Virus record (IMG/VR): IMGVR_UViG_3300032213_000998
Location: 1 to 32,561 of that record
Reading direction: 5' to 3' (one strand)
Source: a virus
DNA: 32,561 bases
A model generated the notes under the pieces. It did not search any database, was not told the origin of the DNA, and saw only the letters and a program-made list of their open reading frames with translations. Position 1 is the first letter of the stretch; every line of letters begins with the position of its first letter. The position numbers were made by a program, and so were the translations under genes. Below, in pieces: positions 1 through 32,561 of this stretch.

Positions 1-603
1 CCGTTCCACATCCCAAGTAATTGGACTAAATTTAGGGCTTGTGACTATGGATACGGAAGTTATAGTGCTGTGGTGTGGTTTGCTGTGTCTCCAAGTGAAC
101 AATTGGTCATCTATCGTGAGCTATATGTTAGCAAAGTACTTGCCAAAGACCTCGCTCACTTAGTAATGAGGGCTGAAGAGAACGATGGTCCTATGAGATA
201 TGGTGTATTGGACAGTAGTTGTTGGCATAAGCGTGGTGATACAGGTCCATCACTGGCAGAACAGATGATTGCAGAGGGTTGTAGGTGGAGGCCAGCGGAT
301 AGAAGTGCTGGAAGTAGGGTGTCTGGTAAGAATGAGCTGCATAGAAGACTACAGCTTGACCCCTTTACAGAACAACCAAGACTAGTTATAACAAGCAACT
401 GTGTAAATACGATTGCTCAGCTACCCATCATACCTTTGGACAAGAAAAACCCAGAGGATATTGATACTAAAGCTGAAGATCACTTATATGATGCTATTCG
501 TTATGGTGTGATGAGCAGACCTAGAAGTAGTTTGTTCGATTACAATCCATTAAATTCTGCTGGCTCTGGGATGAAGATGGCAGACCCCACATTTGGGTAT
601 TAA
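1..603 (+). CDS. Terminase large subunit, 3' part (nuclease domain)
   Basis: This is the C-terminal 200 residues of the packaging motor's large subunit; the reading frame is open from base 1, so the ATPase half lies outside the window. The visible part matches the RNase H-like nuclease that cuts concatemeric DNA at the start and end of packaging. An acidic residue in the strand FRACDYGYGSYSAVVWF (Asp15 of the visible frame), the segment GVLDSSCW in the middle and the late acidic helix HLYDAIRYG are the expected places of the metal-binding acids. The gene stops 9 bases before the portal gene, the usual terminase-portal order. Function is inferred from these motifs and the neighbour; the internal ATG at 70 is not a real start because homology-like sequence continues upstream of it. 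Confidence 0.88.
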   Translation, partial: PFHIPSNWTKFRACDYGYGSYSAVVWFAVSPSEQLVIYRELYVSKVLAKDLAHLVMRAEENDGPMRYGVLDSSCWHKRGDTGPSLAEQMIAEGCRWRPADRSAGSRVSGKNELHRRLQLDPFTEQPRLVITSNCVNTIAQLPIIPLDKKNPEDIDTKAEDHLYDAIRYGVMSRPRSSLFDYNPLNSAGSGMKMADPTFGY

Positions 604-612
604 AGGGTATTT

Positions 613-2703
613 ATGGCGCAAAACAATTTTATGGATGCTAAGTCCGTTGGTTTAGAAGATAAAAAAGAAGGTGAACTTACACCATTTGCTGGTGATAGTC
701 TCTTGAGTTTTCTAAACGAAAGATACACCAAGAGTGAAGAGAGTCGTAGACAAGACGAACAGCGTTGGCTGAGGGCTTATAGAAACTATCGTGGTCTTTA
801 TGGACCAGATGTTAAATTTACAGAGACAGAAAAGTCTCGTGTGTTTATTAAAGTGACAAAGACTAAGGTGCTTGCAGCATATGGTCAAATCACTGATGTG
901 TTATTTGCTAATAATAAATTTCCTCTTAGTGTTGATCCCACTGTATTACCAGAAGGTGTAGTAGATTCAGCACATATAGATCCTAAAGCTCCAGAAGAAG
1001 CTGAACCTGAGATGGCTTCTCCTTTTGGTTACAAAGGTGATGGTAAAGATTTGCCTCCCGGTGCTACATTAACAACTCTTATGGATCGTCTTGGTCCATT
1101 TAAAGACCAGCTTAAAGATGCTAAGAATCTTAAAGAAGGTCCGGGTGTAACTCCTACCTCCATTACATTCCATCCTGCAATGGTTGCAGCTAAAAAGATG
1201 GAAAAGAAAATACATGACCAGTTGGATGAGAGTGGTGCTAACAAGCATCTTCGCTCTACAGCTTTTGAGATGGCTCTGTTTGGTACAGGCATCATGAAAG
1301 GCCCATTTGCTAAGACAAAGGAATATCCAAACTGGGATGAAGAAGGTACATATACACCACAGATGAAGACAGTACCAGAGACATCACATGTTTCTATTTG
1401 GAACTTCTATCCTGATCCTGATGCTACTAACATGGAAGAAGCTCAATACATTATTGAGCGTCACAAGCTTAGCTCTACACAACTTAGAGCTTTGAAGAAT
1501 CGTCCACTGTTTAGAAACAATGTTATTGAAGAAGTGATTGAATCAGGTTCTACTTATGTTAAAAAATATTGGGAAGATGATTTAAAAGACTATGCTCCCA
1601 ACTTTGGTATAGATAGATTTGAAGTGTTGGAATATTGGGGCAATGTTGATATTGAATTGCTTAAAGAAAACGACATTACTATTCCAGAAGAATTTGAAGA
1701 CTTTAAAGAACTCCAAGCTAACGTATGGTTTTGCAATGGTAAAATTATGCGCTTAGTATTAAATCCGTTTAAGCCCGCCAACATTCCGTACTATGCTGCT
1801 CCTTGCGAATTAAACCCCTACTCTCTATTTGGCATTGGTGTCGCTGAAAACATGGACGACACCCAGACCCTCATGAATGGTTTTATGCGTATGGCAGTGG
1901 ACAATGCGGTGTTGTCGGGCAACCTTGTGTTTGAGGTTGATGAAACCAACCTTGTTCCCGGACAGGACATGTCTGTCTATCCCGGTAAAGTGTTTAGACG
2001 ACAGGGCGGTGCTCCCGGTCAAAGCTTGTTTGGAACTAAGTTTCCTAACGTAGCTGCTGAGAACTTACAACTGTTTGATAAGGCACGACAACTTGCTGAC
2101 GAATCTACAGGCATGCCATCATTTTCACATGGACAAACTGGTGTGAGTGGTGTTGGTAGAACAGCCTCTGGTATTTCTATGTTGATGAATGCTGCATCTG
2201 GCAGTGTTAAAACCATCATCAAGAATGTGGATGATTATTTGTTAGCTCCGTTGGGTAAGGCTTTCTTTAGCTTCAACATGCAATTTGACTTTGATAGATC
2301 AATCAGAGGAGACTTGGAAGTTACAGCTAGAGGTACAGAGAGCTTGATGGCGAATGAGGTGAGAAGTCAACGCTTGATGCAGTTCTTGCAAATTGCAAGC
2401 TCTCCTTCATTGATGCCGTTTGCTAAGTTTCCCTATATCATTCGTGAGATTGCGAAGAGTATGGACTTAGATCCAGACAAGGTTACTAACAACATGGAAG
2501 AAGCTATGCGTCAAGCTTTGCTGATGCAACAAGCTGCTGCACCTGCAGAGGGTGCTCCTCCTGTTGGTGGTCCAGAAGGTGGTCCTCCTCCAGTCGCTGA
2601 CATGACTGGTGGTGGTGGTGGAAATATTGGCGTTGGTGCAGCACCAGTGCCGGGTGAACAAGGATTTGCTGGTAATGCTCAAGCCGTACCTCCCCAAGCT
2701 TAA
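613..2703 (+). CDS. Portal protein (head-tail connector)
   Basis: A 696-residue protein directly after the terminase; size and place fit the dodecameric ring through which DNA enters and leaves the head. The N-terminal third is charged and helical, a long central part holds the clip/wing/stem-type mixed fold, and the tail from about residue 630 is low-complexity Pro/Gly/Ala (PVGGPEGGPPP, a run of five Gly) and probably disordered. GGG at 605-607 upstream of the ATG gives a modest ribosome binding site. Its end overlaps the next gene by 29 bases. Codons between about 1750 and 2040 are richer in C than the rest, which may be mosaicism or only local composition. I infer the role from position and length and from a general resemblance to portals of short-tailed phages; no single diagnostic motif was used. 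Confidence 0.85.
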   Translation: MAQNNFMDAKSVGLEDKKEGELTPFAGDSLLSFLNERYTKSEESRRQDEQRWLRAYRNYRGLYGPDVKFTETEKSRVFIKVTKTKVLAAYGQITDVLFANNKFPLSVDPTVLPEGVVDSAHIDPKAPEEAEPEMASPFGYKGDGKDLPPGATLTTLMDRLGPFKDQLKDAKNLKEGPGVTPTSITFHPAMVAAKKMEKKIHDQLDESGANKHLRSTAFEMALFGTGIMKGPFAKTKEYPNWDEEGTYTPQMKTVPETSHVSIWNFYPDPDATNMEEAQYIIERHKLSSTQLRALKNRPLFRNNVIEEVIESGSTYVKKYWEDDLKDYAPNFGIDRFEVLEYWGNVDIELLKENDITIPEEFEDFKELQANVWFCNGKIMRLVLNPFKPANIPYYAAPCELNPYSLFGIGVAENMDDTQTLMNGFMRMAVDNAVLSGNLVFEVDETNLVPGQDMSVYPGKVFRRQGGAPGQSLFGTKFPNVAAENLQLFDKARQLADESTGMPSFSHGQTGVSGVGRTASGISMLMNAASGSVKTIIKNVDDYLLAPLGKAFFSFNMQFDFDRSIRGDLEVTARGTESLMANEVRSQRLMQFLQIASSPSLMPFAKFPYIIREIAKSMDLDPDKVTNNMEEAMRQALLMQQAAAPAEGAPPVGGPEGGPPPVADMTGGGGGNIGVGAAPVPGEQGFAGNAQAVPPQA

Positions 2704-2887
2704 AGGCTTTGTAAACACTAACGCTACATGGGAAGCGTTCTTAGATATGCTAGATGCTGAGATTGCTCAGCAGCATAAAAATTTAGAACAAGCTGTTGAT
2801 GTGCGTGAGATTGGAAAGGCTCAAGGAGCCATTGCTGCTTTACGCAGACTAAGTTATCTTAAGGATGAAGTTAATGTACAACAATGA
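2675..2887 (+). CDS. Small helical protein overlapping the portal gene
   Basis: A 70-residue protein (MLKPYLPKLKGF... to ...KDEVNVQQ). The start at 2675 is preferred over an upstream ATG at 2609 because AAGGA (2661-2665) sits about 9 bases before it and because the earlier residues only mirror the Gly-rich portal tail in another frame. It overlaps portal by 29 bases and the next gene by 14 bases, so the three are translationally coupled. The residues from about 15 to 65 are predicted helical and amphipathic (WEAFLDMLDAEIAQQHKNLE). Position suggests a head-completion or packaging accessory role. No known domain is recognised. Confidence 0.7.
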   Translation: MLKPYLPKLKGFVNTNATWEAFLDMLDAEIAQQHKNLEQAVDVREIGKAQGAIAALRRLSYLKDEVNVQQ

Positions 2888-3827
2888 CACAGAAAAACTC
2901 TTTGCTGAAGGCGGCATGAATGATGAGGGTGGCACAGTAGATCCTGTGTCTGGTAATGATGTACCTACGGGATCTTTGCAGAAAGAAGTGAGGGATGATA
3001 TTCCTGCACAACTTAGTGAAGGCGAGTTTGTTATTCCTGCTGATGTTGTTAGATACATTGGCCTTGATCGCTTGATGCAACTAAGAGATAGAGCAAAAGA
3101 AGGACTGGCTAAGATGGAAGAGATTGGTCAGATGGGAAATGCTGATCAAGTAGAAAATCCAGAAGCTGAGCACGGTGATGACTTCTCGGATGAGATTGAT
3201 AGCATCATGGGCGAACTTGAGGGAGAGAAAAATAATTTAGCAGTGGGTGGTATGCCAGCTCCTAAGTCTACTCCTGAAGTAAAGCAATTTAGAAAGCCTG
3301 ATGGTAGTTCTATGTTTGTAACTTTCTTTAATGGAGAACCTGCAACTACTATTCCAGAAGGTGCTCAAGAAATAACAGCAGCAAATGCAACTCAAAAAGC
3401 TTCCTCTTCTTTAACTAATACTGAGAAAGCAGTTAATAAGAAAATTGATACTAAAGACATGTCTATGTTTGATGAAGAAGACATTGATAAAAAGTTTGAT
3501 AAAGCTTTCTTTGATGAAGTTGCTAGATTTGGCATGGAAAGAAAGAATAAAGAAGTAAGTGCTAAAACCACTCAAGCTGAAGTTCCTACCTACAAGATTG
3601 ATCAAGAGCTTTCAGATTTTTCAGATGCTTTAGATTACAAGTTAACAGGTGATACGGAATCAAGCATGCTATCTAAATCACTAGATGAAGCAGCTGCCCC
3701 TGCTACGGAACCAGCCGCACCTGCTGCTGAACCAACTGCTCCTGCTGCTGCGCCAGCTGAGGCCCCTCCTGTGGAGCCACCCCCTGAAATGGCTAAAGGT
3801 GGACTGGTACGCAGACGTAAGAAATAA
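2874..3827 (+). CDS. Putative virion structural protein with AKGG-type tail
   Basis: A 317-residue acidic protein between the portal and scaffold genes. The ATG at 2874 is chosen because AAGGA (2861-2865) lies 8 bases upstream; the ATG at 2865 has no spacing for a ribosome binding site. Residues 9-70 hold the segment FAEGGMNDEGG, then a conserved-looking block LSEGEFVIPADVVRYIGLDR followed by an amphipathic helix; the middle is charged and probably flexible; the last 50 residues are an Ala/Pro repeat (PAAEPTAPAAAP) ending in a basic peptide MAKGGLVRRRKK. Proteins with the SEGEFVIPADVV block occur next to head genes in phages of aquatic bacteria, so a virion or assembly role is likely, but the exact role is unknown. 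The basic tail could bind DNA or act as an incorporation tag; that is inference. Confidence 0.72.
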   Translation: MYNNDTEKLFAEGGMNDEGGTVDPVSGNDVPTGSLQKEVRDDIPAQLSEGEFVIPADVVRYIGLDRLMQLRDRAKEGLAKMEEIGQMGNADQVENPEAEHGDDFSDEIDSIMGELEGEKNNLAVGGMPAPKSTPEVKQFRKPDGSSMFVTFFNGEPATTIPEGAQEITAANATQKASSSLTNTEKAVNKKIDTKDMSMFDEEDIDKKFDKAFFDEVARFGMERKNKEVSAKTTQAEVPTYKIDQELSDFSDALDYKLTGDTESSMLSKSLDEAAAPATEPAAPAAEPTAPAAAPAEAPPVEPPPEMAKGGLVRRRKK

Positions 3828-3839
3828 TATATAATTAGC

Positions 3840-3891
3840 ATACTCAAGCCAGAGGTGGGCTGGCGAGTATCCACAATTTCCCACCGTTTTT
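3840..3891 (+). promoter_or_regulatory. Predicted H-type RNA pseudoknot before the scaffold gene
   Basis: ATACTC (3840-3845) pairs with GAGTAT (3865-3870) and GCCAG (3848-3852) with CTGGC (3860-3864), giving an 11-bp stem with an AA bulge. Six of the seven loop bases, GGTGGG (3854-3859), are exactly complementary to CCCACC (3880-3885). The interleaved pairing leaves a 1-nt first loop and a 9-nt last loop, which fits classical pseudoknot geometry. The alternative pairing GGTGGG/CCCACC followed by GTTTTT (3886-3891) could instead act as a weak terminator. Seen by eye; not folded by software. Confidence 0.45.
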
Positions 3892-3948
3892 GGCTACCTA
3901 TCTCCCTGTATTGACAGCTACAGTTAGCCCCAACTTAAAAGGTATGTT

Positions 3949-4815
3949 ATGACAGAAGCAGTGATTAATCCGAACCAACAGGCTCAGGCGTTCTCTCCAT
4001 TTGGTAAGCGTAATGCTAACAAAGATCGGATTGAACAAGAAGAAGCAGAATTGAAACGATTGGCTGAAGATAAGAACAATCCATCACAAGATCAACAAGA
4101 CAGTGGTGATGATAGTAACTTAAGCGGAGAAGAGAAAAGCTTTAAGAAGCGTTACGGTGATCTTCGCAGACACTCTCAGCAACAGCAAACAGCTTTGCAA
4201 AAGCAAATTGATGAACTTCGTTCACAACTACAGCAAAGCACAGAGAAGCAAATTAAGCTTCCTAAGAGTGAGGAAGAGTTGAATGAATGGGCAAAAACCT
4301 ACCCTGATGTTGCAAAGATTGTTGAAACAATTGCAATTAAAAAGGCTAAGGAACAAACCCAAGCATTGGATGAACGATTCAAACAGCTTGATGAGCGTGA
4401 GCATCAGACAGCTAAGGAGAAAGCAGAAGCTGAATTGATGCGTCTGCACCCTGACTTTGACTCCATCCGTGATGATGATGATTTCCACAACTGGGTTGAA
4501 GAACAACCTAAGTGGGTGCAAGATGCTTTGTATGATAATGACAGTGATGCAAAAGCTGCTGCTCGTGCCATTGATCTTTACAAGGCTGATAAGAATATTA
4601 AGACGAAGAAGCCTACCTCAGATAAGGGTGCAGCAGAAAGTGTTAACACCCGTGGTAGTCGTTCTGCGCCTACAGGCGAAAGCAAAGATGGTGTCTTTTA
4701 TGAGTCACAGGTAAATAAAATGTCTACCTTTGAATATGAAAAGAACCAAGAAGCTATTGCTAAAGCATTACAATCAGGTAAGTTTGTATACGATATTAGC
4801 GGAAGTGCTCGTTAA
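3949..4815 (+). CDS. Capsid scaffold / assembly protein
   Basis: A 288-residue, highly charged, Gln/Glu/Lys-rich protein immediately upstream (apart from an HNH gene) of the major capsid gene, the classical place of the scaffold. Residues 25-110 and 130-165 are predicted coiled coil (RLAEDKNN..., LQKQIDELRSQLQQ, ERFKQLDEREHQTAKEK). A compact block around residues 165-210 (LHPDFDSIRDDDDF, EEQPKWVQDALYDND) looks conserved, and the C-terminal 30 residues (FEYEKNQEAIAKALQSGKF) may form the helix that binds the capsid protein. AAAAGG (3937-3942) is the ribosome binding site. A TTGACA at 3911-3916 lies upstream but has only a poor -10 partner. No protease domain is visible, so the scaffold is probably released or cut by another protein. 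Confidence 0.8.
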   Translation: MTEAVINPNQQAQAFSPFGKRNANKDRIEQEEAELKRLAEDKNNPSQDQQDSGDDSNLSGEEKSFKKRYGDLRRHSQQQQTALQKQIDELRSQLQQSTEKQIKLPKSEEELNEWAKTYPDVAKIVETIAIKKAKEQTQALDERFKQLDEREHQTAKEKAEAELMRLHPDFDSIRDDDDFHNWVEEQPKWVQDALYDNDSDAKAAARAIDLYKADKNIKTKKPTSDKGAAESVNTRGSRSAPTGESKDGVFYESQVNKMSTFEYEKNQEAIAKALQSGKFVYDISGSAR

Positions 4816-4818
4816 GTA

Positions 4819-4846
4819 TTGACAAACCTGAAACAACTGGTATAAC
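4819..4846 (+). promoter_or_regulatory. Sigma-70-type promoter
   Basis: A perfect -35 box TTGACA (4819-4824), 16 bases of spacer, and -10 TATAAC (4841-4846, five of six). It starts 3 bases after the scaffold stop codon and would drive the HNH gene and perhaps the capsid gene. It implies recognition by host RNA polymerase. It is the best match to a host promoter that I found in the window. Confidence 0.6.
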
Positions 4847-4852
4847 TTTAAC

Positions 4853-4917
4853 AGAGCGAAAAGGGTAGCTCCCCTGACTGTGCCAATCCATAGTCTAGCT
4901 CTTTATCTGATTGGGGA
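4853..4917 (+). promoter_or_regulatory. Structured leader hiding the HNH ribosome binding site
   Basis: CCAATC (4883-4888) is complementary to GATTGG (4909-4914), and the second arm overlaps the GGGGA (4913-4917) that serves as ribosome binding site for the ATG at 4923. The hairpin loop holds GCTCT (4898-4902), which can pair with AGAGC (4853-4857), again giving an interleaved fold. Sequestration of the start region would keep nuclease levels low. Inferred from base pairing by eye. Confidence 0.35.
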
Positions 4918-4922
4918 TTGTT

Positions 4923-5450
4923 ATGGGTGAAGTTAAGACATGCCGCAAGTGCGGTGAAGTTAAGGAATTAGTTGACTTTGTTAAACATAAACAAAGCAAA
5001 GGTGGATATAAACATACCTGTAAACTGTGTGAAAAAGAGCAGAAAAAAGAATACTACTCTGAAAATAAAACTCATATTACAAATAGAAATAAAGAGTATC
5101 GTGTAGTAAATGGTATGTGGTACAACAAGTCTATTGAGCATAGGCTTCGATATGTAATTCAGACTGGTATCGTAAGAGCCAAAAAGAAAAACATTGAATG
5201 GAATTTAAGTTTGGAGTTTCTTTTACTTTTGTGGGAGAGGCAACAAAGTAAATGTGCATACTCTGGAGTACCCCTCACATATGAGGACAACTACTCGCAC
5301 ACTATCTCACTGGACCGTATAGACAGTTCAAAGGGATATACAGAGGATAATGTACAGTATGTCTGTACGATTGTTAATTACATTAAGCAAAGATTTGATG
5401 AAAAGCATTTCTTTGATTTCTGTAAACAAGTAGCGCAAAACTGTAAGTGA
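4923..5450 (+). CDS. HNH endonuclease, free-standing homing type
   Basis: A 175-residue nuclease gene inserted between scaffold and capsid genes. The N-terminus has a zinc-binding pair C7-x2-C10 and C33-x2-C36. The HNH core near the C-terminus reads CAYSG (111-115), SLDRIDSSKGY (129-139), then N143 and C148; D131 and the N/H positions are the expected metal and catalytic residues. The family cuts one or both DNA strands and often spreads its own gene between phage genomes. The ATG at 4923 is preferred over TTG at 4911 because GGGGA lies 5 bases before it. Flanking genes are complete, so this is a stand-alone gene and not an intron or intein passenger. Its lysine-rich, AT-rich coding differs from its neighbours, in keeping with mobility. 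Confidence 0.85.
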   Translation: MGEVKTCRKCGEVKELVDFVKHKQSKGGYKHTCKLCEKEQKKEYYSENKTHITNRNKEYRVVNGMWYNKSIEHRLRYVIQTGIVRAKKKNIEWNLSLEFLLLLWERQQSKCAYSGVPLTYEDNYSHTISLDRIDSSKGYTEDNVQYVCTIVNYIKQRFDEKHFFDFCKQVAQNCK

Positions 5451-5479
5451 GCAGATCACCCAGTCTAGTTAGCCCATAC

Positions 5480-5506
5480 TTATTAGATATTCTAGAGTTC
5501 TAATAA
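5480..5506 (+). other. AT-rich inverted repeat after the HNH gene
   Basis: TTATTAGA (5480-5487) and TCTAATAA (5499-5506) are perfect inverted repeats around an 11-base centre that itself holds TCTAGA. There is no following T run, so it is not a typical terminator. It could be an mRNA processing stem or a protein-binding palindrome. Confidence 0.4.
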
Positions 5507-5533
5507 ATGTGCACCTGATGTTAGATGGCCCTG

Positions 5534-5581
5534 TAGATCTTTGTGAGCGTATTTTTATATGCCTAACACATATCTAGGAGG
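5534..5581 (+). promoter_or_regulatory. Stem-loop plus strong ribosome binding site of the capsid gene
   Basis: An imperfect long hairpin TAGAT / TGTG / GCGTAT (5534-5552) - TTTT - ATATGC / CACA / ATCTA (5557-5576) ends exactly where AGGAGG (5576-5581) begins. The Shine-Dalgarno sequence is left single-stranded 8 bases before the ATG at 5590. Such stems protect mRNA or mark RNase III processing. The consensus-quality site suits the most highly made phage protein. Confidence 0.5.
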
Positions 5582-5589
5582 ATATTAAA

Positions 5590-6660
5590 ATGGCCTTTCC
5601 AAGTGCAGCAGGTTACGGTAACCTGCCAAATGGGAATTTTAGTCCCGTTATCTATAGTAAGCAAGTACAACTTGCCTTTAGAAAAGCGTCTACTGTTGAA
5701 GACATCACCAACAACGATTACTTTGGTGAAATCGCAAACATGGGCGACAGTGTCAAAATCATTAAAGAACCTGAAGTGTCTGTCCAGAGCTATGCTCGTG
5801 GTACACAGATCACTGCTCAAGATCTGAATGACGAAGACTTCACCTTGGTTGTTGACCAAGCTAACTACTACGCTTTCAAGATTGATGACATCGAAGCTGC
5901 TCACTCACATGTGAACTTCATGCAGATGGCTTCTGATCGTGCAGCGTATCGTTTGCGTGATCAGTATGACCAAGATGTGTTGGGTTACTTGTCTGGTTTT
6001 TCACAGTCTGCAAAGCATGTGAATCCTGATACAGCTCGTACAACAGCTTCTGGTACTAAGGCAGTTACTGCCGCTGGTGCTGATGAGTTGTTGGCTTCTA
6101 TGAAGCTGAAAAAAGGTAGCTTCGGTAACATCACTACAGCTTCTGCTGGTGAGCATTCCATTCCTCTGGCTCCCCGTCTGCCCGGTGCAACTGCACTGCC
6201 TACAGATGTGGCATCTCCATTGATGGTTGTGTCTCGCATGGGCCGCTTGTTGGATCAACAGTTTGTTGATTCCGCTGGTCGTTGGTTGGTTGTCGATCCC
6301 GTGTTCATTGAACTGTTGAAGGATGAAGACAGCCGTTTGTTGAACGGTGATTTTGGTGGTTCTGGTTTGCAGAACGGCTTGGTCATTAACAACTTGCATG
6401 GCTTCCGCATCTATGTTTCTAACAACCTGCCAAAGATTGGTACTGGTCCCGGCACTACAGGTACGGCTAACCAGAACTCCAACTATGGTGTGATTGTTGG
6501 TGGTCATGACTCTGCTGTTGCAACTGCTCAGCAAATCACTAAGACCGAGACATATCGTGATCCAGACAGCTTCGCTGACATCGTGCGTGGTATGCATCTT
6601 TATGGTCGCAAAATCTTGCGTCCTGAAGGCATCGTCACTGCTAAATACAACGCTGCTTAA
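5590..6660 (+). CDS. Major capsid protein
   Basis: A 356-residue protein with the strongest ribosome binding site of the block (AGGAGG). The order scaffold - capsid - decoration, the length, and the pattern of a helical N-arm region (FSPVIYSKQVQLAFRKAS), a beta-rich E-loop-like segment (SVQSYARGTQITAQDL), a long spine-like helix (FMQMASDRAAYRLRDQYDQD) and a C-terminal strand (GIVTAKYNAA) fit the HK97 fold used by all tailed phages. Several hundred copies would build the head shell. There is no separate N-terminal delta domain, so a separate scaffold is needed, as found upstream. Codon use is the most C/G-ending of the head genes, as expected for high expression. HK97 fold is inferred from family knowledge, not from structure. 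Confidence 0.9.
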   Translation: MAFPSAAGYGNLPNGNFSPVIYSKQVQLAFRKASTVEDITNNDYFGEIANMGDSVKIIKEPEVSVQSYARGTQITAQDLNDEDFTLVVDQANYYAFKIDDIEAAHSHVNFMQMASDRAAYRLRDQYDQDVLGYLSGFSQSAKHVNPDTARTTASGTKAVTAAGADELLASMKLKKGSFGNITTASAGEHSIPLAPRLPGATALPTDVASPLMVVSRMGRLLDQQFVDSAGRWLVVDPVFIELLKDEDSRLLNGDFGGSGLQNGLVINNLHGFRIYVSNNLPKIGTGPGTTGTANQNSNYGVIVGGHDSAVATAQQITKTETYRDPDSFADIVRGMHLYGRKILRPEGIVTAKYNAA

Positions 6661-6671
6661 GGAGAACAATT

Positions 6672-7079
6672 ATGTCTATCGTTCAATCTATTCGTCCCGT
6701 TCCCGTATTGCTTGAGAAGGATGTCTCTTTGGCTGCTACCTCTGGCACTACTGTGGGCATTTCTGTCCCTGCTGGTGCTTTGGTGCTTGCTGCTGGTTTT
6801 CAAAACTATACTGTGGTCCCTGATGTTACTACCTACACTGTCGCAGTGACAGATGGTACTACTACTTTCATGGCTGCTACTAGCTTTGACAACACTGCTG
6901 CAAACACAATCAAGGCTGGCACTACTGCTGGTTTGGCTGCTGCCGCTGATACCATTGATGTATTAACTTCTATCACTGGTTCTCCCGGCATCATCGCTGG
7001 TCGTGTGTGGGCTTTGGTGGTGGATGTCACCCAAGGCACTCGACCCGCAGCTGCTGTGGATCGTGAGCAACTGGCCTAA
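6672..7079 (+). CDS. Putative head decoration protein
   Basis: A 135-residue, Ala/Thr/Val-rich, beta-strand-rich protein starting 12 bases after the capsid gene, with GGAGA (6660-6664) as ribosome binding site. Strand-like segments such as VPAGALVLAAGFQNY, TTYTVAVTDGTTTF and GRVWALVVDVT alternate with Gly/Pro turns. Position after the capsid gene, size and composition fit a decoration (cement) protein on the head surface. Two hairpins follow its stop codon, the second terminator-like, so capsid and decoration transcripts may end here. The specific family is not recognised. Confidence 0.65.
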   Translation: MSIVQSIRPVPVLLEKDVSLAATSGTTVGISVPAGALVLAAGFQNYTVVPDVTTYTVAVTDGTTTFMAATSFDNTAANTIKAGTTAGLAAAADTIDVLTSITGSPGIIAGRVWALVVDVTQGTRPAAAVDREQLA

Positions 7080-7095
7080 TAGCTAGTTGATAGGA

Positions 7096-7150
7096 GGGGG
7101 AGGCTTCAGCGCCTCTCCCATTTCTGTATGCTCTATTAGAGAGCGTTTTT
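7096..7150 (+). terminator. Hairpin pair with terminator after the capsid/decoration genes
   Basis: First stem GGGGGAGGC (7096-7104) / GCCTCTCCC (7111-7119), nine pairs including one G-U, with a six-base loop but only ATTTCTGT after it. Second stem GCTCT (7130-7134) / AGAGC (7140-7144) followed by GTTTTT (7145-7150), an intrinsic-terminator layout with a short stem. Together they probably reduce read-through from head genes into tail genes. Confidence 0.6.
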
Positions 7151-7170
7151 AAAACTAAGAGGATTCTCTA

Positions 7171-7614
7171 ATGGCTATTACTTCTGCCCTTTGCACAAGC
7201 TTTAAAAAAGAACTGCTTGAGCGTAAACATGACTTTAATGCTACAAGCGGTCATACATTTAAGATTGCTTTGTACACATCTTCTGCCAACCTTGGTGCTT
7301 CAACCACAAACTACACAAGCTCTAACGAAGTTGTAGGCACTGGTTACACTGCTGGCGGTATTGCCTTGACAAACATTGATCCCACTAGCAGTGGCACTAC
7401 AGCATTCATTGACTTTGCTGATGCTACTTGGGCTAGTGCAACCATCACTGCTGCTGGTGCTTTGATTTATAACACAACCACTGACGGTGGCTCAGCTACA
7501 ACTAATGCTGTAGCTGTCATCTCTTTTGGTGGTGATAAAACATCTACCAACGGTGACTTTGTAATTCAATTCCCAACAGCAGACGCAAGCAACGCTATTG
7601 TTCGTATTGCATAA
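7171..7614 (+). CDS. Small beta-rich virion protein
   Basis: A 147-residue protein with AAGAGGA (7157-7163) as ribosome binding site. It begins with a short helix (FKKELLERKHDF), then strand-turn-strand repeats rich in Thr, Ser and Gly (FKIALYTSSANLG, GTGYTAGGIALTN, TTAFIDFADATW, NGDFVIQFP). Proteins with the 'KIALYTSSA ... VVGTGYTAGG' layout are common among structural genes of tailed phages. A head-surface or tail-adhesion role is plausible. It is in the tail-joining block, 13 bases before the next gene. No catalytic motif is present. Confidence 0.6.
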   Translation: MAITSALCTSFKKELLERKHDFNATSGHTFKIALYTSSANLGASTTNYTSSNEVVGTGYTAGGIALTNIDPTSSGTTAFIDFADATWASATITAAGALIYNTTTDGGSATTNAVAVISFGGDKTSTNGDFVIQFPTADASNAIVRIA

Positions 7615-7627
7615 GGAGTCGTAGGTT

Positions 7628-8536
7628 ATGGCTACGACAACCCGGTCGGGTGCAATATATGGCATTGGCGTATACGGGACATCCCGTTATGGCTTAAGCA
7701 ATGTTACATATGTTCCTGATGGGGTGCAAGGCACAGCAACATCCGATAGTGGTGTTGTTATTAGCGGTGATGCTAACCATGTAGTTGTTAGCTTAGTTGC
7801 TGTAGGTGCGACAGGTAGTGTAGGTGTAGTTGGTGTAGCAGTTACTAGTTTAGTTGGTGTATCTGCAACTGGCTTTGTCAATGATGGCGTATCGTTTAGT
7901 TTAGGCTGTAGGTTTGAAATTGGTAGCGTTAGTGCTACAGGAAGCATAGGCAGTGTTACTGCTGTTGCTAAAGCAGTTACCAGCTTAGTTGGTGTATCTG
8001 CACAGGGTAGTGTTGGTAGTGTTGTTGTTATTGCTAAGGCAAATATAACAATATCAGGTGTATCAGCTACAACAGCTATAGGCATTGTAGATGTTAGATC
8101 TATCAACAGAATCCCTGTAACTGGAATTGAAGCAACGACATCACTAGGTAGTGTTGTTGTAGTGGCGAAAGCAAACACTGGGTTAGTTGGTGTTGAAGGA
8201 ATAAGTAGTTTAGGTATTGTTGCTGCACTGGCTAATGCCTTAGTAGCAATATCTGGTGTAGAAGCTACAGCAGCTCTTGGTGATGTTGTAGTAGCTAATA
8301 ATGCTAGACCAACCTTTGATGGTGTGTCTGCTACAGGAGCTGTAGGTACAGTTGCTGTAACAACTACAATATTTGACTATCCTGCTGTAGCGCATCTTTA
8401 CGACAGAAGAAGAACTATATATGTTGAAAGACAGAGTACAGCTAAAGAAAGAACAGTGATGGTGTTAGCGCAATCTCGTAGGGTGTATGTTGATAAAAAT
8501 CCTACAGATTATGATAGAACATCTTATGTGGCTTGA
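7628..8536 (+). CDS. Virion protein of about eight 22-residue repeats
   Basis: A 302-residue protein whose central 210 residues are a tandem array of units of about 22 residues with the pattern SLVGVSATGSVGSVVVVAKA (G-V-S/E-A-T-x-x-x-G-x-V). The second unit carries an insertion (FVNDGVSFSLGCRFEIG). The N-terminal 35 residues are Gly/Tyr-rich (YGIGVYGTSRYGLS), and the last 55 residues (YDRRRTIYVERQS, RRVYVDKNPTDYDR) are basic and not repetitive, likely an anchoring domain. One-turn-per-repeat lengths near 22 suit a beta-solenoid or a stack of short hairpins. GGAG (7614-7617) is the ribosome binding site. It may be a fibrous surface protein. The family is not named. Confidence 0.65.
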   Translation: MATTTRSGAIYGIGVYGTSRYGLSNVTYVPDGVQGTATSDSGVVISGDANHVVVSLVAVGATGSVGVVGVAVTSLVGVSATGFVNDGVSFSLGCRFEIGSVSATGSIGSVTAVAKAVTSLVGVSAQGSVGSVVVIAKANITISGVSATTAIGIVDVRSINRIPVTGIEATTSLGSVVVVAKANTGLVGVEGISSLGIVAALANALVAISGVEATAALGDVVVANNARPTFDGVSATGAVGTVAVTTTIFDYPAVAHLYDRRRTIYVERQSTAKERTVMVLAQSRRVYVDKNPTDYDRTSYVA

Positions 8537-8561
8537 TAGCCTAGACAAGTATATACAGATG

Positions 8562-8577
8562 CTTCTACTAATAGAAG
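8562..8577 (+). other. Small hairpin between structural genes
   Basis: CTTCTA (8562-8567) and TAGAAG (8572-8577) form a six-pair stem with a CTAA tetraloop in the 67-base gap. No T run follows. It may be a processing or stabilising stem. Confidence 0.3.
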
Positions 8578-8603
8578 TGCTTTAGTGGAGTAGGAGTTTA
8601 ATA

Positions 8604-8921
8604 ATGTCTTTTCGATGGCCTAACAAAGATCCTGATGAGCTTTTAGACTACAGTGTAGACTGGTCTAGGTTTTTAGAAACAGCAACTATTAGTAGCTGTT
8701 CTTGGTTTGTTGATGACAGTACTGGCACAAAGACAGCCATTACTGCAGGGAACACTGTTAATGGCATTCAGAACGTAGCACAAACTATTTCTGGTGCTGT
8801 CACTACAATCAATCTTGGTTTAGGTACTAATAATAAAGAGTACAAATTCTATTGTAGAATTACAGATAATAGTGGAAATATCGCTGAGCGAGTTTCTCGT
8901 TTGCGTATTAAGGAACAATAA
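8604..8921 (+). CDS. Small virion protein, immunoglobulin-like fold likely
   Basis: A 105-residue protein starting FRWPNKDPDELLDYSVDWSR, followed by alternating strands (TISSCSWFVDD, TTINLGLGTNNKEYKFYCRITDNSG) and a final strand RLRIKEQ. Short proteins with the 'W-P-x-K-D-P-x-E-x-x-D-Y-x-V-D-W' opening are frequent near tail genes and appear to have an Ig-like beta sandwich (pattern C-W ... Y-x-C). TAGGAG (8591-8596) is the ribosome binding site and only two bases separate it from the adaptor gene. Role unknown; head-tail joining or decoration is inferred. Confidence 0.6.
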   Translation: MSFRWPNKDPDELLDYSVDWSRFLETATISSCSWFVDDSTGTKTAITAGNTVNGIQNVAQTISGAVTTINLGLGTNNKEYKFYCRITDNSGNIAERVSRLRIKEQ

Positions 8922-8923
8922 GA

Positions 8924-9649
8924 ATGGCATACGATTATCTTGGACTTACCAATGAAGTTAATAGAAGGCTTAACGAAGTTGAGCTTACTTCCGCAAACTT
9001 CCTTACTGCCACTGGTTTCTACGCTCACATCAAAGATGCTGTAAATGCTTCTATTAGAGATATCAACCACACTCACTATGAGTGGCCTTTCAATCATGTG
9101 CTTGCTGAGGAAACGCTGACAGCAGGTACAACTAGATATGCTTTCCCAGCTGATGCCAGCACCATTGACTTTGATACTTTCCGCATCAAGGAAAATGCTA
9201 CCTTAGCTAACGACACTGTTAGGCTTGGTGTCATCACTTATGACGACTTTCTTCAGAGATATGTAGACCAAGAATATTCTACTGATTCTAGTAAGCGTGA
9301 AGTACCTTCATATGTATTCCATGCTCCTAGTTTAGAATGGGGTGTTGTTCCTGCTCCTGATCAAGCATATCCAATTGTTTATGAATACTACAGAATTCCT
9401 GTAGATCTTCTTAATGCTACAGATGTTCCATCTATTCCTGAGAGATTTAAACAAGTTATTCTTGATGGTGCTATGTATCATGCCTATATGTTTAGAAGCA
9501 ATGAACAAGCAGCTACTATAGCTAAGAATAAGTTTGATGAGGGTATTAAGAAGATGAGGATTCTTCTTATCAATAGATATGTATATATGCAATCTACTGT
9601 CATTACACAATCTTCTGCTTTTGGTGGCTTCGGTGATAGGGTTAAATAA
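8924..9649 (+). CDS. Head-tail adaptor (tail tubular A-like)
   Basis: A 241-residue protein with a helical N-terminus (LTNEVNRRLNEVEL, FYAHIKDAVNASIRDIN), a central beta part (TLTAGTTRYAFPADASTIDF) and C-terminal helices (ERFKQVILDGAMYHAYMFRSNE, IAKNKFDEGIKKM). This helix-beta-helix layout, the length and the place directly before the nozzle gene fit the ring protein under the portal of short-tailed phages (T7 gp11 / P22 gp4 type role). The stop codon overlaps the next start by one base (TAATG), so adaptor and nozzle are made in step. Assignment is from context and layout. Confidence 0.75.
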   Translation: MAYDYLGLTNEVNRRLNEVELTSANFLTATGFYAHIKDAVNASIRDINHTHYEWPFNHVLAEETLTAGTTRYAFPADASTIDFDTFRIKENATLANDTVRLGVITYDDFLQRYVDQEYSTDSSKREVPSYVFHAPSLEWGVVPAPDQAYPIVYEYYRIPVDLLNATDVPSIPERFKQVILDGAMYHAYMFRSNEQAATIAKNKFDEGIKKMRILLINRYVYMQSTVITQSSAFGGFGDRVK

Positions 9650-11628: not shown

Positions 11629-11637
11629 GGAATAGTT

Positions 11638-19722: not shown

Positions 19723-19724
19723 TT

Positions 19725-27999: not shown

Positions 28000-28206
28000 T
28001 TATTCCCCTGTAGATTTATTGCTATTAGTGAGCGATCCAATTTCATCAAACTCACCAATGTAGATGCTAATGAAAGGCAACTTGATTAGTATACCACTAT
28101 ATGCATACAGCTTATCAGTGTTTCCACCATCATTAACAATGTGACATATGTCATCATTATATTCAATGTCTAGTCCTATGCCTTGTCTGACATTAACAAC
28201 TATCAT
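28000..28206 (-). CDS. Small protein after nrdB
   Basis: A 68-residue protein (MIVVNVRQGIGLDIEYNDDI...) that starts in an ATGA overlap with the nrdB stop and ends one base before the next ATG. The tight packing supports a real gene. It looks like a small beta fold (IVVNVRQG, LIKLPFISIYIGEFDEIG) with no recognised motif; its place suggests co-expression with ribonucleotide reductase. Function unknown. Confidence 0.55.
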   Translation of the reverse strand: MIVVNVRQGIGLDIEYNDDICHIVNDGGNTDKLYAYSGILIKLPFISIYIGEFDEIGSLTNSNKSTGE

Positions 28207-29162
28207 GCTGCCTTACCCCATACATCATCCCAAGTACCAGTGGTAGCACCCTTGCTGTAGTCTGTTACACGCTGCTCAAAGAAGTTGGTGTGGCTAACAC
28301 CAAGCATACCATCTACCCACGGCAGAGGATTCTTCTTAATCTTGTAGATGCCCTTCATTCCCATAGAGATGAGTCTACGATCAGCAATGTAGCGGATGTA
28401 TTGCTTCACTTCTTCTTTCGTAAGCTTCTCGACCTCGACCATTGAAAAAGCCAGATCCACAAACTGATCCTCCAGACCCACCATTTGATGAGCAATTTCT
28501 TTAATGCGATCCGAAGTCGTTTCATCCTGATGGTGTTTAACGTATTCACGATAGACCTTAATCATGCCTTCAGCATGTTGAGTTTCGTCAACGATGGACC
28601 AAGCAATGATTTGGCCCAGCCCTTTAAGCTTACCATTCCTTGCGAAGTTTAGCAACATCACAAAGCTAGAGAATAGTTGCATGCCCTCACCAAAGGCAGA
28701 GATGGCTGCAATTTTTTCAGCCATTGGTGCTGCATTCAGATTGCTGATGTAGTCGTGCTTCTCCACCATCTCTTTGTATTGGAGGAATTCATTGTAGGTA
28801 GATTCAGGCAAGCCCAAGGTTTCAATGAGGTGAGCATATGCTGCCACATGCAAAGCTTCCCTACCTGCAAAGCCACTCATCATCATTCTTACTTCAGGTT
28901 GTTTGAACACTGGAATGTAGTGGTCATGATAACCACTGCCAATGTCCAAGTCACCTTGCACAAAGAAGCGTAAGATTTTAGTAAGAAACTCTTGCTCATT
29001 AGCACTGAGTTTTCTGTAGTCTTTAACATCCTCAGACATAGGCACTTCAGTATGAAGCCAATGGCTTTGCTCATGCTGAAGCCAAGCATCATATGCCCAA
29101 GGATATTTGAATGGTTTGAATGTTGTACGTTCTTGCGTAATATCTGCTTTTGTTCTTACCAT
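28203..29162 (-). CDS. nrdB: Ribonucleotide reductase class I, small subunit
   Basis: A 319-residue ferritin-like radical subunit that partners NrdA in making deoxyribonucleotides for phage DNA. Metal ligands are visible: D71 or D73 in VQGDLDIG, E102 and H105 in REALHVAAYAHL, E159 in FGEGMQ, E193 and H196 in DETQHAEG; Y109, four residues after H105, is at the place of the radical tyrosine (E-x-x-H-x-x-x-Y). The C-terminus is the acidic/aromatic kind that docks to NrdA (GTWDDVWGKAA). The ATG at 29162 is preferred over a GTG at 29174 since GAAGG lies before it and only one base separates it from the nrdA stop. The gene ends in an ATGA overlap with a small gene. Confidence 0.93.
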   Translation of the reverse strand: MVRTKADITQERTTFKPFKYPWAYDAWLQHEQSHWLHTEVPMSEDVKDYRKLSANEQEFLTKILRFFVQGDLDIGSGYHDHYIPVFKQPEVRMMMSGFAGREALHVAAYAHLIETLGLPESTYNEFLQYKEMVEKHDYISNLNAAPMAEKIAAISAFGEGMQLFSSFVMLLNFARNGKLKGLGQIIAWSIVDETQHAEGMIKVYREYVKHHQDETTSDRIKEIAHQMVGLEDQFVDLAFSMVEVEKLTKEEVKQYIRYIADRRLISMGMKGIYKIKKNPLPWVDGMLGVSHTNFFEQRVTDYSKGATTGTWDDVWGKAA

Positions 29163-29163
29163 A

Positions 29164-30945
29164 TCAACCTTCACATGCTAAACAAGTTTCACCATCAGCC
29201 ACAGTTTTCAAATCAATTTCATCTTCAATCTTCTGACGCTTGATTTGAGCACCAACCTTATCTGCTTTTCTTACCTTCTCTGAACGGAGATAGTATAAGC
29301 TTTTCAAGCCACTCTTCCAAGCAAGGAAGTGGATGGCATGCAAATATTTAATGGATACATTTGCAGGGAAGAACAGGTTAATGCTCTGGCCTTGGTCAAT
29401 GTATTGTTGTCTGTCTGCTGCTAGTTCAATGAGCCACCTCTGATCAATTTCCATAGCAGTTTTAAATACTTCCTTCAACTGTTCAGGAATGTCTAAGTGC
29501 TGTACAGATCCTTCATTGCTAATGATGGATGCCCACACATCGTCATTGTCCATATCCAGTGCAGCAAGTTGTGCCTTCAAGAACCTATTCTTATAGACGA
29601 ATGCTCCACTAAGTGTGTCCTGCCTAAAAACATTCGCTCTGTACGGCTCGACTGAAGGGCTAGTATTCCCCATAATAAGACTGCTACTGGCATTAGGAGC
29701 AATAGCAGTGTGATGACTAAACCTTCTACTAATATTATCAAGGCCAGCATCGATACAACTACCACGCTGTTGCTCCAAGACAGCATCAGCCCGTAGACAC
29801 GAAGCATGTATGTGTTTAAATATTTCATTGTTATAACTCTTAGCCATCACACCATCGATGGCTACACCTTTCTTCTGCAAAAAAGCATGGAAGCCTAGAG
29901 CACCCACACCAATACTACGCTCCATCATTGCACTAAGCTTAGCTCTGGCAATTGTTGATGGTGCTTTGTCAATGAAGTATTGCAAGACATTGTCTAACAT
30001 TTCCATAACATCTAGAATAAATTGTTTGTCGTTCTTCCACTCATCATAGTATTCCAAGTTGAGAGAAGACAAGCAACAAACTGCTGTTCGTTTCTCGTTA
30101 GTAGGTAGAAATATTTCTGTACACAGATTGCTACCATTAATCTTCAAGCCTTTATCACTCAACCACTTAGGCATAGCCTTGTTAGCTGTGTCAATGAATA
30201 CTAAGTATGGCTCACCAGTTTGCATCCTCAGGTCTAATATTTTCTGCCACAAATATTTAGCAGACACTGTCTCCACTACTTCACCAGTGGCAGGATTCTT
30301 TAATTCAAAGCTGTCATCAAAGTCTGGGTCTTTCATAGACTTCTCAATGATGGTCATAAATTCATCAGTGATGTTGATGCCATGATGTAGGTTTAGTGTG
30401 CGTACATTCTGGTCACCAGTAGGCTTACGCATCTCCAAAAACTGGATGATGTCAGGGTGGTGGATGTCTAGATAGGCAGCATAGCTGCCCCGTCTTGTAC
30501 GTCCTTGACGGTAGGCCAATGAGCTAGCATCGTAGATCTTAAGGTGGGGCATAACACCAGTAGACTTATCATCACTATTGCGGATACCCACATGCACACC
30601 GACACCACCACCATACATGGATAGCCAGTTAGTTTCTGATAGGTTGTCAACCAAGCCTTCTGCACTGTCATCCATGTAGTTAAGGAAGCAGCTGATAGGA
30701 AGGCCACGTTTAGAGCGACCAAACGATAGGATAGGTGTAGAGTAGCTGAGCCAATGCTTGCTGCTGTAGTCATACAGTCTTTGAGCATGTTCTTGATTTG
30801 AAGCAAACGATTCCGAAACATATGCAAATCTCTCTTGAGGACTGGCCTCTTCTTCTTTCATGTAACTTTCTCTTAATCTCTGAATGCCTAGTTCATCGAA
30901 CAATGCATCCCTAGACAGGTCAATGTTGACCTTAAACTTTGCCAT
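29164..30945 (-). CDS. nrdA: Ribonucleotide reductase class I, large subunit
   Basis: A 593-residue catalytic subunit that reduces ribonucleoside diphosphates. Active-site features: C86 in LPISCF and C290 in AVCCLSS form the redox pair; N273-x-C275-x-E277 (GSNLCTEI) holds the thiyl-radical cysteine; Y551-Y552 in LKSLYYLRS continue the radical path to NrdB; C588-x-x-C591 at the end is the mobile thiol pair for thioredoxin-type reduction. It is shorter than bacterial NrdA and lacks an N-terminal ATP-cone, as in many phage enzymes, so dATP inhibition is probably absent. AGGAG upstream of the ATG is the ribosome binding site. An intrinsic terminator sits 23 bases before the start. Confidence 0.95.
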   Translation of the reverse strand: MAKFKVNIDLSRDALFDELGIQRLRESYMKEEEASPQERFAYVSESFASNQEHAQRLYDYSSKHWLSYSTPILSFGRSKRGLPISCFLNYMDDSAEGLVDNLSETNWLSMYGGGVGVHVGIRNSDDKSTGVMPHLKIYDASSLAYRQGRTRRGSYAAYLDIHHPDIIQFLEMRKPTGDQNVRTLNLHHGINITDEFMTIIEKSMKDPDFDDSFELKNPATGEVVETVSAKYLWQKILDLRMQTGEPYLVFIDTANKAMPKWLSDKGLKINGSNLCTEIFLPTNEKRTAVCCLSSLNLEYYDEWKNDKQFILDVMEMLDNVLQYFIDKAPSTIARAKLSAMMERSIGVGALGFHAFLQKKGVAIDGVMAKSYNNEIFKHIHASCLRADAVLEQQRGSCIDAGLDNISRRFSHHTAIAPNASSSLIMGNTSPSVEPYRANVFRQDTLSGAFVYKNRFLKAQLAALDMDNDDVWASIISNEGSVQHLDIPEQLKEVFKTAMEIDQRWLIELAADRQQYIDQGQSINLFFPANVSIKYLHAIHFLAWKSGLKSLYYLRSEKVRKADKVGAQIKRQKIEDEIDLKTVADGETCLACEG

Positions 30946-31036: not shown

Positions 31037-31648
31037 CTAAAACAAGGATGGGACTAAGTTAGTTAGTACTACTTTACATTGGTCTGCTATTTCACGATGT
31101 TCTTTCTGTGTTGCTTTGTCACAGCGAATGTCAACATAGTGCAGCCAGCTTCTCAGTGTACCATTCATGTACATTCTACTGGTAGTTAATCCTTCAGGCA
31201 ACACTTTCCTAGCCACTTCCTTGGCTATGCCCATGCCCAATGCAGCCTCATAGGACCGCTTAGCAGCGATTAAAACGTCTGTCTGTAGCTCTTCCCATAC
31301 CTTGATGAGTTCACGGTCTTCTACGGGGATTGAGTTCTGTCTATTCTTATTGTCCTGTAGCCTTGCCTCACTGGTTTCATAGCGTGAGGAAATGGCATAC
31401 CGCTGTGAGAATTCTTGGAAGCTGAAGCTTCTGTGTCGCAGGATTTGACGGGCAATGTCACGGGTGGTTTCAATTTCCATGCAGACATTGACCATTTCAA
31501 ATGGACTCCAATGTTTGTTGTCCATCAAATACTTTAATAGCTTAGGAGCTGTCTCAGGGTTGTTCTGATTCTCTGGGTTGCTCACCCTCGCCATGTACGC
31601 TATCAGATGTTCCGCATTCGGGGTTGCCCAGACTAGTGTCACCGACAT
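31037..31648 (-). CDS. thyX: Flavin-dependent thymidylate synthase
   Basis: A 203-residue enzyme making dTMP from dUMP with FAD, NADPH and methylene-tetrahydrofolate. The ThyX signature RHR-x7-S is exact: R71-H72-R73 ... S81, continuing Q-R83-Y84 (RHRSFSFQEFSQRY). A second substrate-binding part is ERARKVLPEGLTTSRMYMN-like around residues 155-175 (VARKVLPEGLTTSRMYMNGT). The ATG at 31648 with AAGGAG before it is preferred over an upstream start. The gene overlaps the preceding small gene by 95 bases. It makes the phage independent of host thymidylate supply and of ThyA, and works with NrdAB. Confidence 0.94.
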   Translation of the reverse strand: MSVTLVWATPNAEHLIAYMARVSNPENQNNPETAPKLLKYLMDNKHWSPFEMVNVCMEIETTRDIARQILRHRSFSFQEFSQRYAISSRYETSEARLQDNKNRQNSIPVEDRELIKVWEELQTDVLIAAKRSYEAALGMGIAKEVARKVLPEGLTTSRMYMNGTLRSWLHYVDIRCDKATQKEHREIADQCKVVLTNLVPSLF

Positions 31649-31787
31649 ATTTAGCTCCTTCATTAATGCCATTCTTGATGGCTGTAATTATACCAAGATT
31701 AAGTAGGATGTTACGCTCTTCCCAATTCAATTCAAATGTAAAGGTTGCGCTACCATCATCATGCTCTTCTATCATTTCTACTTTCAT
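31554..31787 (-). CDS. Small protein overlapping thyX
   Basis: A 77-residue protein that starts in an ATGA overlap with the HNH gene. The first half (MKVEMIEEHDDGSATFTFEL, then EERNILLNLGIITAIKNGI) is a beta-hairpin followed by a helix, a layout seen in many small phage early proteins; the second half, which lies in the thyX coding DNA, is low-complexity and acidic (GEGEQPRESEQP) and may be a by-product of the overlap. Function unknown. The overlap couples it to thyX. Confidence 0.6.
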   Translation of the reverse strand: MKVEMIEEHDDGSATFTFELNWEERNILLNLGIITAIKNGINEGAKYVGDTSLGNPECGTSDSVHGEGEQPRESEQP

Positions 31788-32167
31788 TTCTTTTTCCTTT
31801 CTGCTTTCTCTTCATCTGTCTTCACCTTGTGACAAGGCTTACACAACACTTGTAGATTTTCTATCTCACAAAAGATACGATCAATGAACAAGTCCCAACT
31901 AACAAAGCCTTCTGTTGGAGATACTACTGGGAGTATATGATCTACCTGTACATCAGCAGCAACAAAATGCTTCTTACATTTGGCACATTTGTAATGCATT
32001 GCCAGCTTGCCTGTCTTCTTGTTAGTCTTCCTACCAACGAAAGCTTCTTTCAAAGCTTTGAACTTAGGAGGCCAACGCCTAGAGGCTGCTCTCAATGCAG
32101 AGGTGACAAAGCTTCTGAACCTAGAGTCAGTCCACTCACCACCATTTCTTTTTTTGTTATCTACCAA
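31784..32167 (-). CDS. HNH endonuclease, small
   Basis: A 127-residue nuclease with a zinc knuckle and HNH core: C61-x2-C64, D76-H77 in VQVDHILP, N104 in EIENLQVLC, and C109-x2-C112-H113 (LCKPCHKVK). The N-terminal 40 residues are basic, probably DNA-binding (RAASRRWPPKFKALKE). The gene lies in the middle of the reverse operon with short overlaps on both sides, more like a fixed early gene than a recent insertion. It is unrelated to the HNH gene at 4923 beyond the core fold. Possible roles are host DNA breakdown, homing or packaging. Confidence 0.85.
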   Translation of the reverse strand: MVDNKKRNGGEWTDSRFRSFVTSALRAASRRWPPKFKALKEAFVGRKTNKKTGKLAMHYKCAKCKKHFVAADVQVDHILPVVSPTEGFVSWDLFIDRIFCEIENLQVLCKPCHKVKTDEEKAERKKK

Positions 32168-32357
32168 CTGGTGTATCTACTAAATGCGACATGTCAGCAG
32201 CATCGTAATGCACAAATAAATCTCTGGTTATTGCCAGTGCTTCGTCAACATCCAGAGCAACAAACTCAGACAGGAATTTATCATATTCGGATTCAGCAAG
32301 ATGCTCAACAACAAAGCCATTGCTTGCTTCCCTAATAGTTACAGAGTTGATTTTCAT
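32157..32357 (-). CDS. Small acidic protein
   Basis: A 66-residue acidic protein (MKINSVTIREASNGFVVEHL...) starting in an ATGA overlap with the previous gene and overlapping the HNH gene by 11 bases. Beta-hairpin start (SVTIREASNGFVVEHLA) followed by a helix (ESEYDKFLSEFVALD, DEALAITRDLFVHY). This type of small protein is frequent in phage early operons. Function unknown. Confidence 0.6.
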   Translation of the reverse strand: MKINSVTIREASNGFVVEHLAESEYDKFLSEFVALDVDEALAITRDLFVHYDAADMSHLVDTPVGR

Positions 32358-32530
32358 TCTAGTCCTTCCACATCCACATGCTTGAATACCACTTCATATG
32401 AATCCATTTTTTCCAATGAGGCTGTGAGGTTTTCAATGATCACCTCGCTCAACACTTCTTCATTCAGATAGACATTAGGTAGGTCTTCTGGTTTAAAGAA
32501 TACTTTTAAACTAATGTCTACTGTGATCAT
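32354..32530 (-). CDS. Small protein of 58 residues
   Basis: Found by reading the end of the window: ATG at 32530, stop at 32354-32356 overlapping the next ATG (ATGA). The product MITVDISLKVFFKPEDLPNV... ends VVFKHVDVEGLE, with strand - helix - strand pattern and many acidic residues. AAAGAATTGAAAAG before the start gives a weak ribosome binding site. Tight coupling supports the call. Function unknown. Confidence 0.6.
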   Translation of the reverse strand: MITVDISLKVFFKPEDLPNVYLNEEVLSEVIIENLTASLEKMDSYEVVFKHVDVEGLE

Positions 32531-32561
32531 AGCTTTTCAATTCTTTCTTCAACCAGTCTAG
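32511..32561 (-). CDS. 3' end of an upstream gene (partial)
   Basis: An open frame from the window edge reads LDWLKKELKSYDHSRH and stops at 32511-32513, overlapping the next gene by 20 bases like its neighbours. Only 16 residues are visible, so the product cannot be named. Confidence 0.4.
   Translation of the reverse strand, partial: LDWLKKELKSYDHSRH

Follow-up and report, generated by a model that had tools for sequence, protein, structure and literature searches.

The five-base word CCWGG (CCAGG or CCTGG) is absent from a 32,561-base viral sequence, the whole of IMG/VR record IMGVR_UViG_3300032213_000998 (41.4% GC; hereafter the window), which is apparently a fragment of an HMO-2011-type podovirus. 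CCWGG is palindromic by inspection, and we take it to be the specificity of the enzymes EcoRII, PspGI and MvaI. The exclusion is real, strong, specific to the W form, broad among relatives and largely all-or-none. It is best explained by selection, and its likeliest cause, which we hold to be probable, is pressure from natural hosts that favours purging a type II restriction site. No copy is left in the window phage or in most of the relatives sampled, which fits a long-standing evasion of bacterial defences.

An earlier note, made from the sequence alone, had claimed that the word is missing throughout, and exact counting agrees: CCAGG and CCTGG each occur zero times. The number of CCWGG sites to be expected depends on the null model, i.e., 34.7 from base composition, 36.0 from a maximal-order Markov model (both strands), 48 from a second-order Markov model (a Markov comparison being the check that the note had proposed), 45.5 (standard deviation 6.5) from 100 dinucleotide shuffles and 27.8 (standard deviation 4.2, minimum 14) from 1,000 synonymous-codon shuffles. 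CCWGG is strongly under-represented against both composition and codon nulls, which is how avoidance of a type II site is recognised, and CCAGG/CCTGG is the most depleted of the window's strand-paired 5-mers. The S form, CCSGG (CCCGG or CCGGG), occurs exactly 16 times, above the expected 5.6 to 10.2; the note had put it at about 16, with two coordinates off by one (9736 not 9737, and 19963 not 19962).

A proline (Pro) codon followed by a glycine (Gly) codon must spell CCNGG, so the choice of Pro codon is telling. In the window's called open reading frames (ORFs) of at least 100 amino acids (aa), all 15 Pro-Gly pairs use CCC (9) or CCG (6), a regularity already noticed by eye, even though 366 of the 445 Pro codons in these ORFs are CCA or CCT. 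The expected number of Pro-Gly pairs is 31.3.

Relatives were collected with the major capsid protein in four scans, taking the best 80 loci per scan in three of the four. Among the matches listed, CCWGG is missing from 66 of the 80 fetched loci with the nearest capsids, and the three further scans added at least 205 loci. Site counts are given from here on as observed/expected. Long relatives free of the word include G003 (0/105, 58.8 kb), G002 (0/73, 46.4 kb), G007 (0/79, 57.5 kb) and G044 (0/81, 54.7 kb), and the same is true of MW202701 (0/75 over the whole genome) and HMO-2011 (0/74 over the 49,983 bases fetched). Other long records bear it, e.g., G026 (37/42, 51.5 kb), G051 (42/44), G052 (35/40) and G024 (33/41).

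We scored the window, the loci and the deposited phages wherever at least five CCWGG sites were expected; 43 of 294 rows fell below five. This left 251 scored rows, with 190 at 0.1 or less of the expected sites, 49 at 0.4 or more and 12 between, which were kept apart. The window and three deposited phages are among the 189 CCWGG-poor rows used below, HMO-2011 appears a second time as IMG/VR row L101, and 184 of the 189 have exactly zero sites. Their pooled count of 5/2,978 is not independent evidence, and neither is the 0/1,009 pooled from loci that were chosen for having zero CCWGG.

On the capsid tree of all 251 rows, the CCWGG state changes approximately 15 times. With 235 rows, there are 12 changes, whereas 50 label shuffles average 41.8 and never fall below 37, so the state is inherited but switchable. 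Chance or an assembly artefact has a negligible probability as an explanation, given that the absence recurs across numerous separate IMG/VR records as well as the genomes of deposited isolates.

Pairs of loci with different states reveal the route of loss. For example, L060 has 17 CCWGG sites and L261 has none, and 12 of the 14 L060 sites that could be aligned are CCSGG in L261. Smaller discordant pairs show the same W-to-S change at 2 of 2 sites (L136/L144) and 3 of 4 sites (L168/L148). CCSGG stands at 1879/780 in the 189 CCWGG-poor rows (2.41 times expectation) and at 59/85 in 46 CCWGG-bearing rows, although its expectation is small in AT-rich CCWGG-bearing phages, for which we prefer CCGG counts. 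The claim of strong selection against the W form alone therefore stands, on both the aligned sites and the CCSGG excess. Mutation could in principle mimic selection, if Dcm-like methylation of CCWGG were followed by deamination to CTWGG. We consider this very improbable: the products of inner-cytosine deamination (CTWGG/CCWAG) are hardly raised, at 0.79 of expectation in CCWGG-poor rows versus 0.70 in CCWGG-keeping rows, so the excess that it predicts is not seen, and the window's count of zero, where no null gives an expectation under 27.8, is too clean. CCWGG sites are lost by W-to-S change, mostly at Pro-Gly codons, and not by cytosine deamination.

The codon footprint extends to the relatives, where the Pro codon before Gly is CCC or CCG in 1,603 of 1,608 cases in CCWGG-poor rows and in 47 of 512 in CCWGG-bearing rows. 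The dipeptide itself also differs, with Pro-Gly at 0.73 of expectation in CCWGG-poor versus 1.15 in CCWGG-bearing rows, while row-by-row comparison of control dipeptides finds no significant difference (GP, p 0.29; PA, p 0.07; AG, p 0.40). A cost to proteins in Pro-Gly pairs is suggestive and goes no further, because the rows are related, because 11 independent pairs do not reach significance (on average 5.5 for and 0.6 against, median p 0.07) and because the control AG leans the same way on independent pairs (3.7 for, 1.2 against, median p 0.45).

CCWGG is not the only missing word. The earlier note was right about it but treated it alone, and the window also has no GGYRCC (0/16.7), CGCG (0/16.7), GRGCYC (0/7.0) or CCATGG (0/5.6). 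Among the matches listed, 75 of the 80 HTVC115P-group loci (L181-L260) and 36 of the 79 HMO-2011-group loci that were scored have no GATC; in fetched stretches it stands at 0/149 in HMO-2011 (L083), 0/142 in HTVC115P (L085) and 0/150 in HTVC103P (L312). GGCC is 0/67 in G044. We take the missing words of the family to be known type II restriction sites. As side observations, the non-palindromic GCAGGC/GCCTGC is at 0/10.7 in the window, and GAGACC is at 3/155 in pooled CCWGG-free loci.

Some CCWGG-keeping phages have instead lost CCGG (G009 0/10, G051 0/19, G052 0/19, CRP-2 1/28), and others, such as G024 and G021, retain it. Where CCGG could be scored, it is missing in 3 of 19 CCWGG-bearing versus 0 of 159 CCWGG-poor rows. 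Since CCSGG contains CCGG, a phage that banned both words could not encode Pro-Gly at all. CCNGG occurs zero times in the pelagiphages HTVC019P (L308, 1-42084) and in the 20 kb of HTVC011P (L366, 1-20001), and once in HTVC026P (L309, 1-32480). Their Pro-Gly counts are 0/21.8, 0/11.0 and 1/16.9, respectively, and their Gly-Pro counts are 0/21.8, 0/11.0 and 0/16.9. HTVC010P, from the same host, has 15/17.7 Pro-Gly and 11/17.7 Gly-Pro.

Under the restriction account that we favour, part of the natural host population would carry a type II enzyme reading CCWGG, to which any site would expose incoming phage DNA, and the window's lineage would have purged all of its sites under steady purifying selection. 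W-to-S change would remove sites, in many cases synonymously (a Pro codon ahead of Gly going from CCA or CCT to CCC or CCG), and disappearance of the Pro-Gly pair itself probably removed others. The absence of GGYRCC, CGCG, GRGCYC and CCATGG can be read likewise, so each lineage would have its own list of banned words, gained and lost over time. We infer that a restriction enzyme reads the word and is carried by natural hosts distinct from the isolation strains, or in addition to them. Such purging has precedent, as PMC6286503 reports complete or near-complete site elimination in approximately a tenth of prokaryotic viral genomes, mostly for orthodox type II sites.

Several observations join the independent-pair results in weighing against this account. 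Phages isolated on one strain differ in CCWGG state for each of four strains. The counts are 30/26, 54/58, 1/19, 0/28 and 0/14 on HTCC1062; 30/41 (HTVC103P) and 0/38 (HTVC115P) on HTCC7211; 12/75, 32/63, 24/29, 19/33 and 2/71 on FZCC0023; and 1/113, 0/35 (CRP-212), 12/30 and 29/38 (CRP-235) on FZCC0040, with CRP-9, -13, -207, -212, -235 and HTVC011P judged on 17 to 20 kb. HMO-2011-type phages alone show both states on two of these strains, HTCC7211 (HTVC103P, HTVC115P) and FZCC0040 (CRP-235, CRP-212); the CCWGG-poor phages of HTCC1062 and FZCC0023 belong to other groups (HTVC019P, HTVC011P, HTVC026P, CRP-4), and CRP-1 is intermediate. The enzymes of the isolation strains alone therefore do not set the state, unless CCWGG-bearing phages have an unrecognised anti-restriction function. 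SAR11 genomes are also reported (PMC9516812) to be without restriction-modification, which sits poorly with the loss of GATC from nearly all listed HTVC115P-group loci. In one phylum, 21 of the 398 genomes sampled have EcoRII-C and 10 have MvaI_BcnI (0 of 14 control genomes matched), so suitable CCWGG nucleases exist but are patchy for so steady a ban. Finally, site elimination is described as rarer in temperate phages (PMC6286503), and some related phages have annotated integrases.

The ban is common to HMO-2011 (SAR116 host), HTVC115P (SAR11 host) and MW202701 (Manatee Spring), and it also occurs in phages of Roseobacter hosts. With same-strain phages differing as well, and CCWGG being one of several words that the window lacks, the suggestion that the absence might help to name the host is not supported, and neither is a single host enzyme as a host label. 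The spread over hosts and the same-strain differences, together with the report on SAR11 (PMC9516812), would suit a CCWGG reader that is an undescribed defence or element of several aquatic bacterial groups and no classical host restriction enzyme. We think this unlikely, as the family's missing words resemble a list of type II sites and natural hosts are poorly sampled. Put more broadly, and with a similarly low probability, phages infecting aquatic bacteria that are unrelated and often streamlined would face a steady non-classical CCWGG barrier, to which phage families would respond with lists of banned words that are inherited yet switchable, and strict enough to remove Pro-Gly from their proteomes, along with Gly-Pro in some pelagiphages.

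The cause could also lie in the phages themselves, e.g., a phage-encoded nuclease that cuts CCWGG in host or rival DNA, to which the phage is immune by lacking the site. We rate this as improbable. Small EndoVII/HNH-like ORFs do occur in many of these phages, and the best-associated protein family is in 6 of 8 long CCWGG-free and 0 of 6 long CCWGG-bearing genomes. However, no family was in 8 of 8 and 0 of 6 (BLAST level, 1,972 ORFs from 42 genomes, with up to approximately 5 kb of at least four genomes not fetched), and several words are missing at once. EndoVII-like nucleases, including the window's own (Table 1), do not track the exclusion: they are in 13 of 26 CCWGG-free versus 4 of 16 other genomes and were not found in G044, HMO-2011 or HTVC115P. 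The window's HNH ORF has relatives in G003, G002, G007 and MW202701, and none in the other four long CCWGG-free genomes.

Self-methylation was considered as an explanation for the CCWGG-keeping phages and rejected: the C5 cytosine methyltransferase domain PF00145 was in 0 of 50 and again 0 of 50 records, many of them fragments, and 25 of the first 50 had CCWGG in the stretch fetched (a single site in L052). A CRP-2 gene annotated as a Dcm methylase (L311:2541-3278) matched nothing in Pfam at E up to 1, nor does the CRP-2 record contain PF00145. In the genomes examined, we thus found no phage-borne methyltransferase or nuclease that explains the ban, and host restriction remains our preferred reading. 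Separately, two proteins of 460 and 532 aa (L320:7234-8616, minus strand; L314:8703-10301, minus strand) are confined to CCWGG-bearing genomes from a single branch (6 and 5 of 13, respectively) and occur in 0 of 23 CCWGG-free genomes. Neither has a PHROG or Pfam match; that branch may have a protective gene.

The window's portal identity (Table 1) places it in the HMO-2011-type group, and it has portal and capsid homologues in the same order as that group. At 32.6 kb, it compares with approximately 52.7 to 56.2 kb for MW202701 and the marine relatives listed, and with up to 58.8 kb for related records. Its genes also include tail and endolysin genes. The ORF directly upstream of the capsid gene had just a sub-threshold Pfam match to another family and no PADLOC match; MW202701 has an EndoVII-like ORF at the same place (L081:29578-30147), and none is annotated there in HMO-2011 or CRP-1. 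In looking for hosts, a capsid scan of genome contigs found no relative, and the HTVC019P capsid, used as bait for SAR11 genomes, gave three matches, none of them named SAR11. ARAGORN found no transfer RNA (tRNA) in the window, G003 or G002 and some in G007 and G006, and Rfam scans of the integrase-bearing part of G003 or of G044 found no tRNA remnant. G003 has an AT-rich inverted repeat of approximately 88 bases (L086:14195-14282) with weak matches to unrelated Rfam hairpin models.

Table 1. Features of the window, with positions counted from its first base.
Feature	Position	Strand	Remark
Portal protein	613..2703	+	77% identity to MW202701, 72% to HMO-2011
CCSGG sites in portal gene: 1057, 1141, 1957, 1981, 2014	1057..2018	+	form replacing CCWGG in relatives
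Other CCSGG sites: 2650, 6984, 7641, 9736, 15729, 17611, 19963, 19987, 21375	2650..21379	.	
Small EndoVII-like ORF directly upstream of capsid gene	4911..5450	+	grouped with EndoVII-like ORFs of relatives by iterated hidden Markov model search
Major capsid protein	5590..6660	+	bait for relatives and basis of tree
CCCGG sites in major capsid gene: 6181, 6448	6181..6452	+	
Ribonucleotide reductase, small and large subunits	28203..30945	-	
ThyX thymidylate synthase	31037..31672	-	
HNH endonuclease ORF	31784..32167	-	relatives in some CCWGG-free genomes only

HMO-2011-type phages are considered abundant in the sea, with hosts that are in many cases uncultured. The DNA-cutting defences of those hosts may be recorded in a lineage-specific list of missing words, and isolates that share a strain but differ in state allow a direct test. 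One missing word should not be read as a host label. The Pro-Gly counts also suggest that selection at the DNA level can change protein sequence.

A limited literature search found no paper describing the loss of CCWGG from HMO-2011-type phages, nor one on the loss of Pro-Gly. Among close relatives, HMO-2011 (GU557055) and MW202701 resemble the window in having no CCWGG. HMO-2011 differs in having no GATC, which the window keeps (88/117), and in its ribonucleotide reductase, which is annotated as the adenosylcobalamin-dependent type (as in CRP-1, CRP-2 and CRP-3), whereas the window has large and small subunits. GANTC depletion in some pelagiphage clades (PMC9516812) is alike in being a clade-wise loss of a methylation word with hosts reported to be without restriction-modification; our case involves other words (CCWGG, GATC, GGYRCC, CGCG, CCGG) and another phage group, with codon and dipeptide effects counted. 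Compared with restriction-site avoidance in prokaryotic viruses as treated by Rusinov et al. 2018 (PMC6286503), the ban here is common to phages with different hosts, and same-strain phages differ. The phenomenon belongs to this known restriction-site avoidance, to which it adds a family-wide, switching list of missing words and a Pro-Gly footprint.

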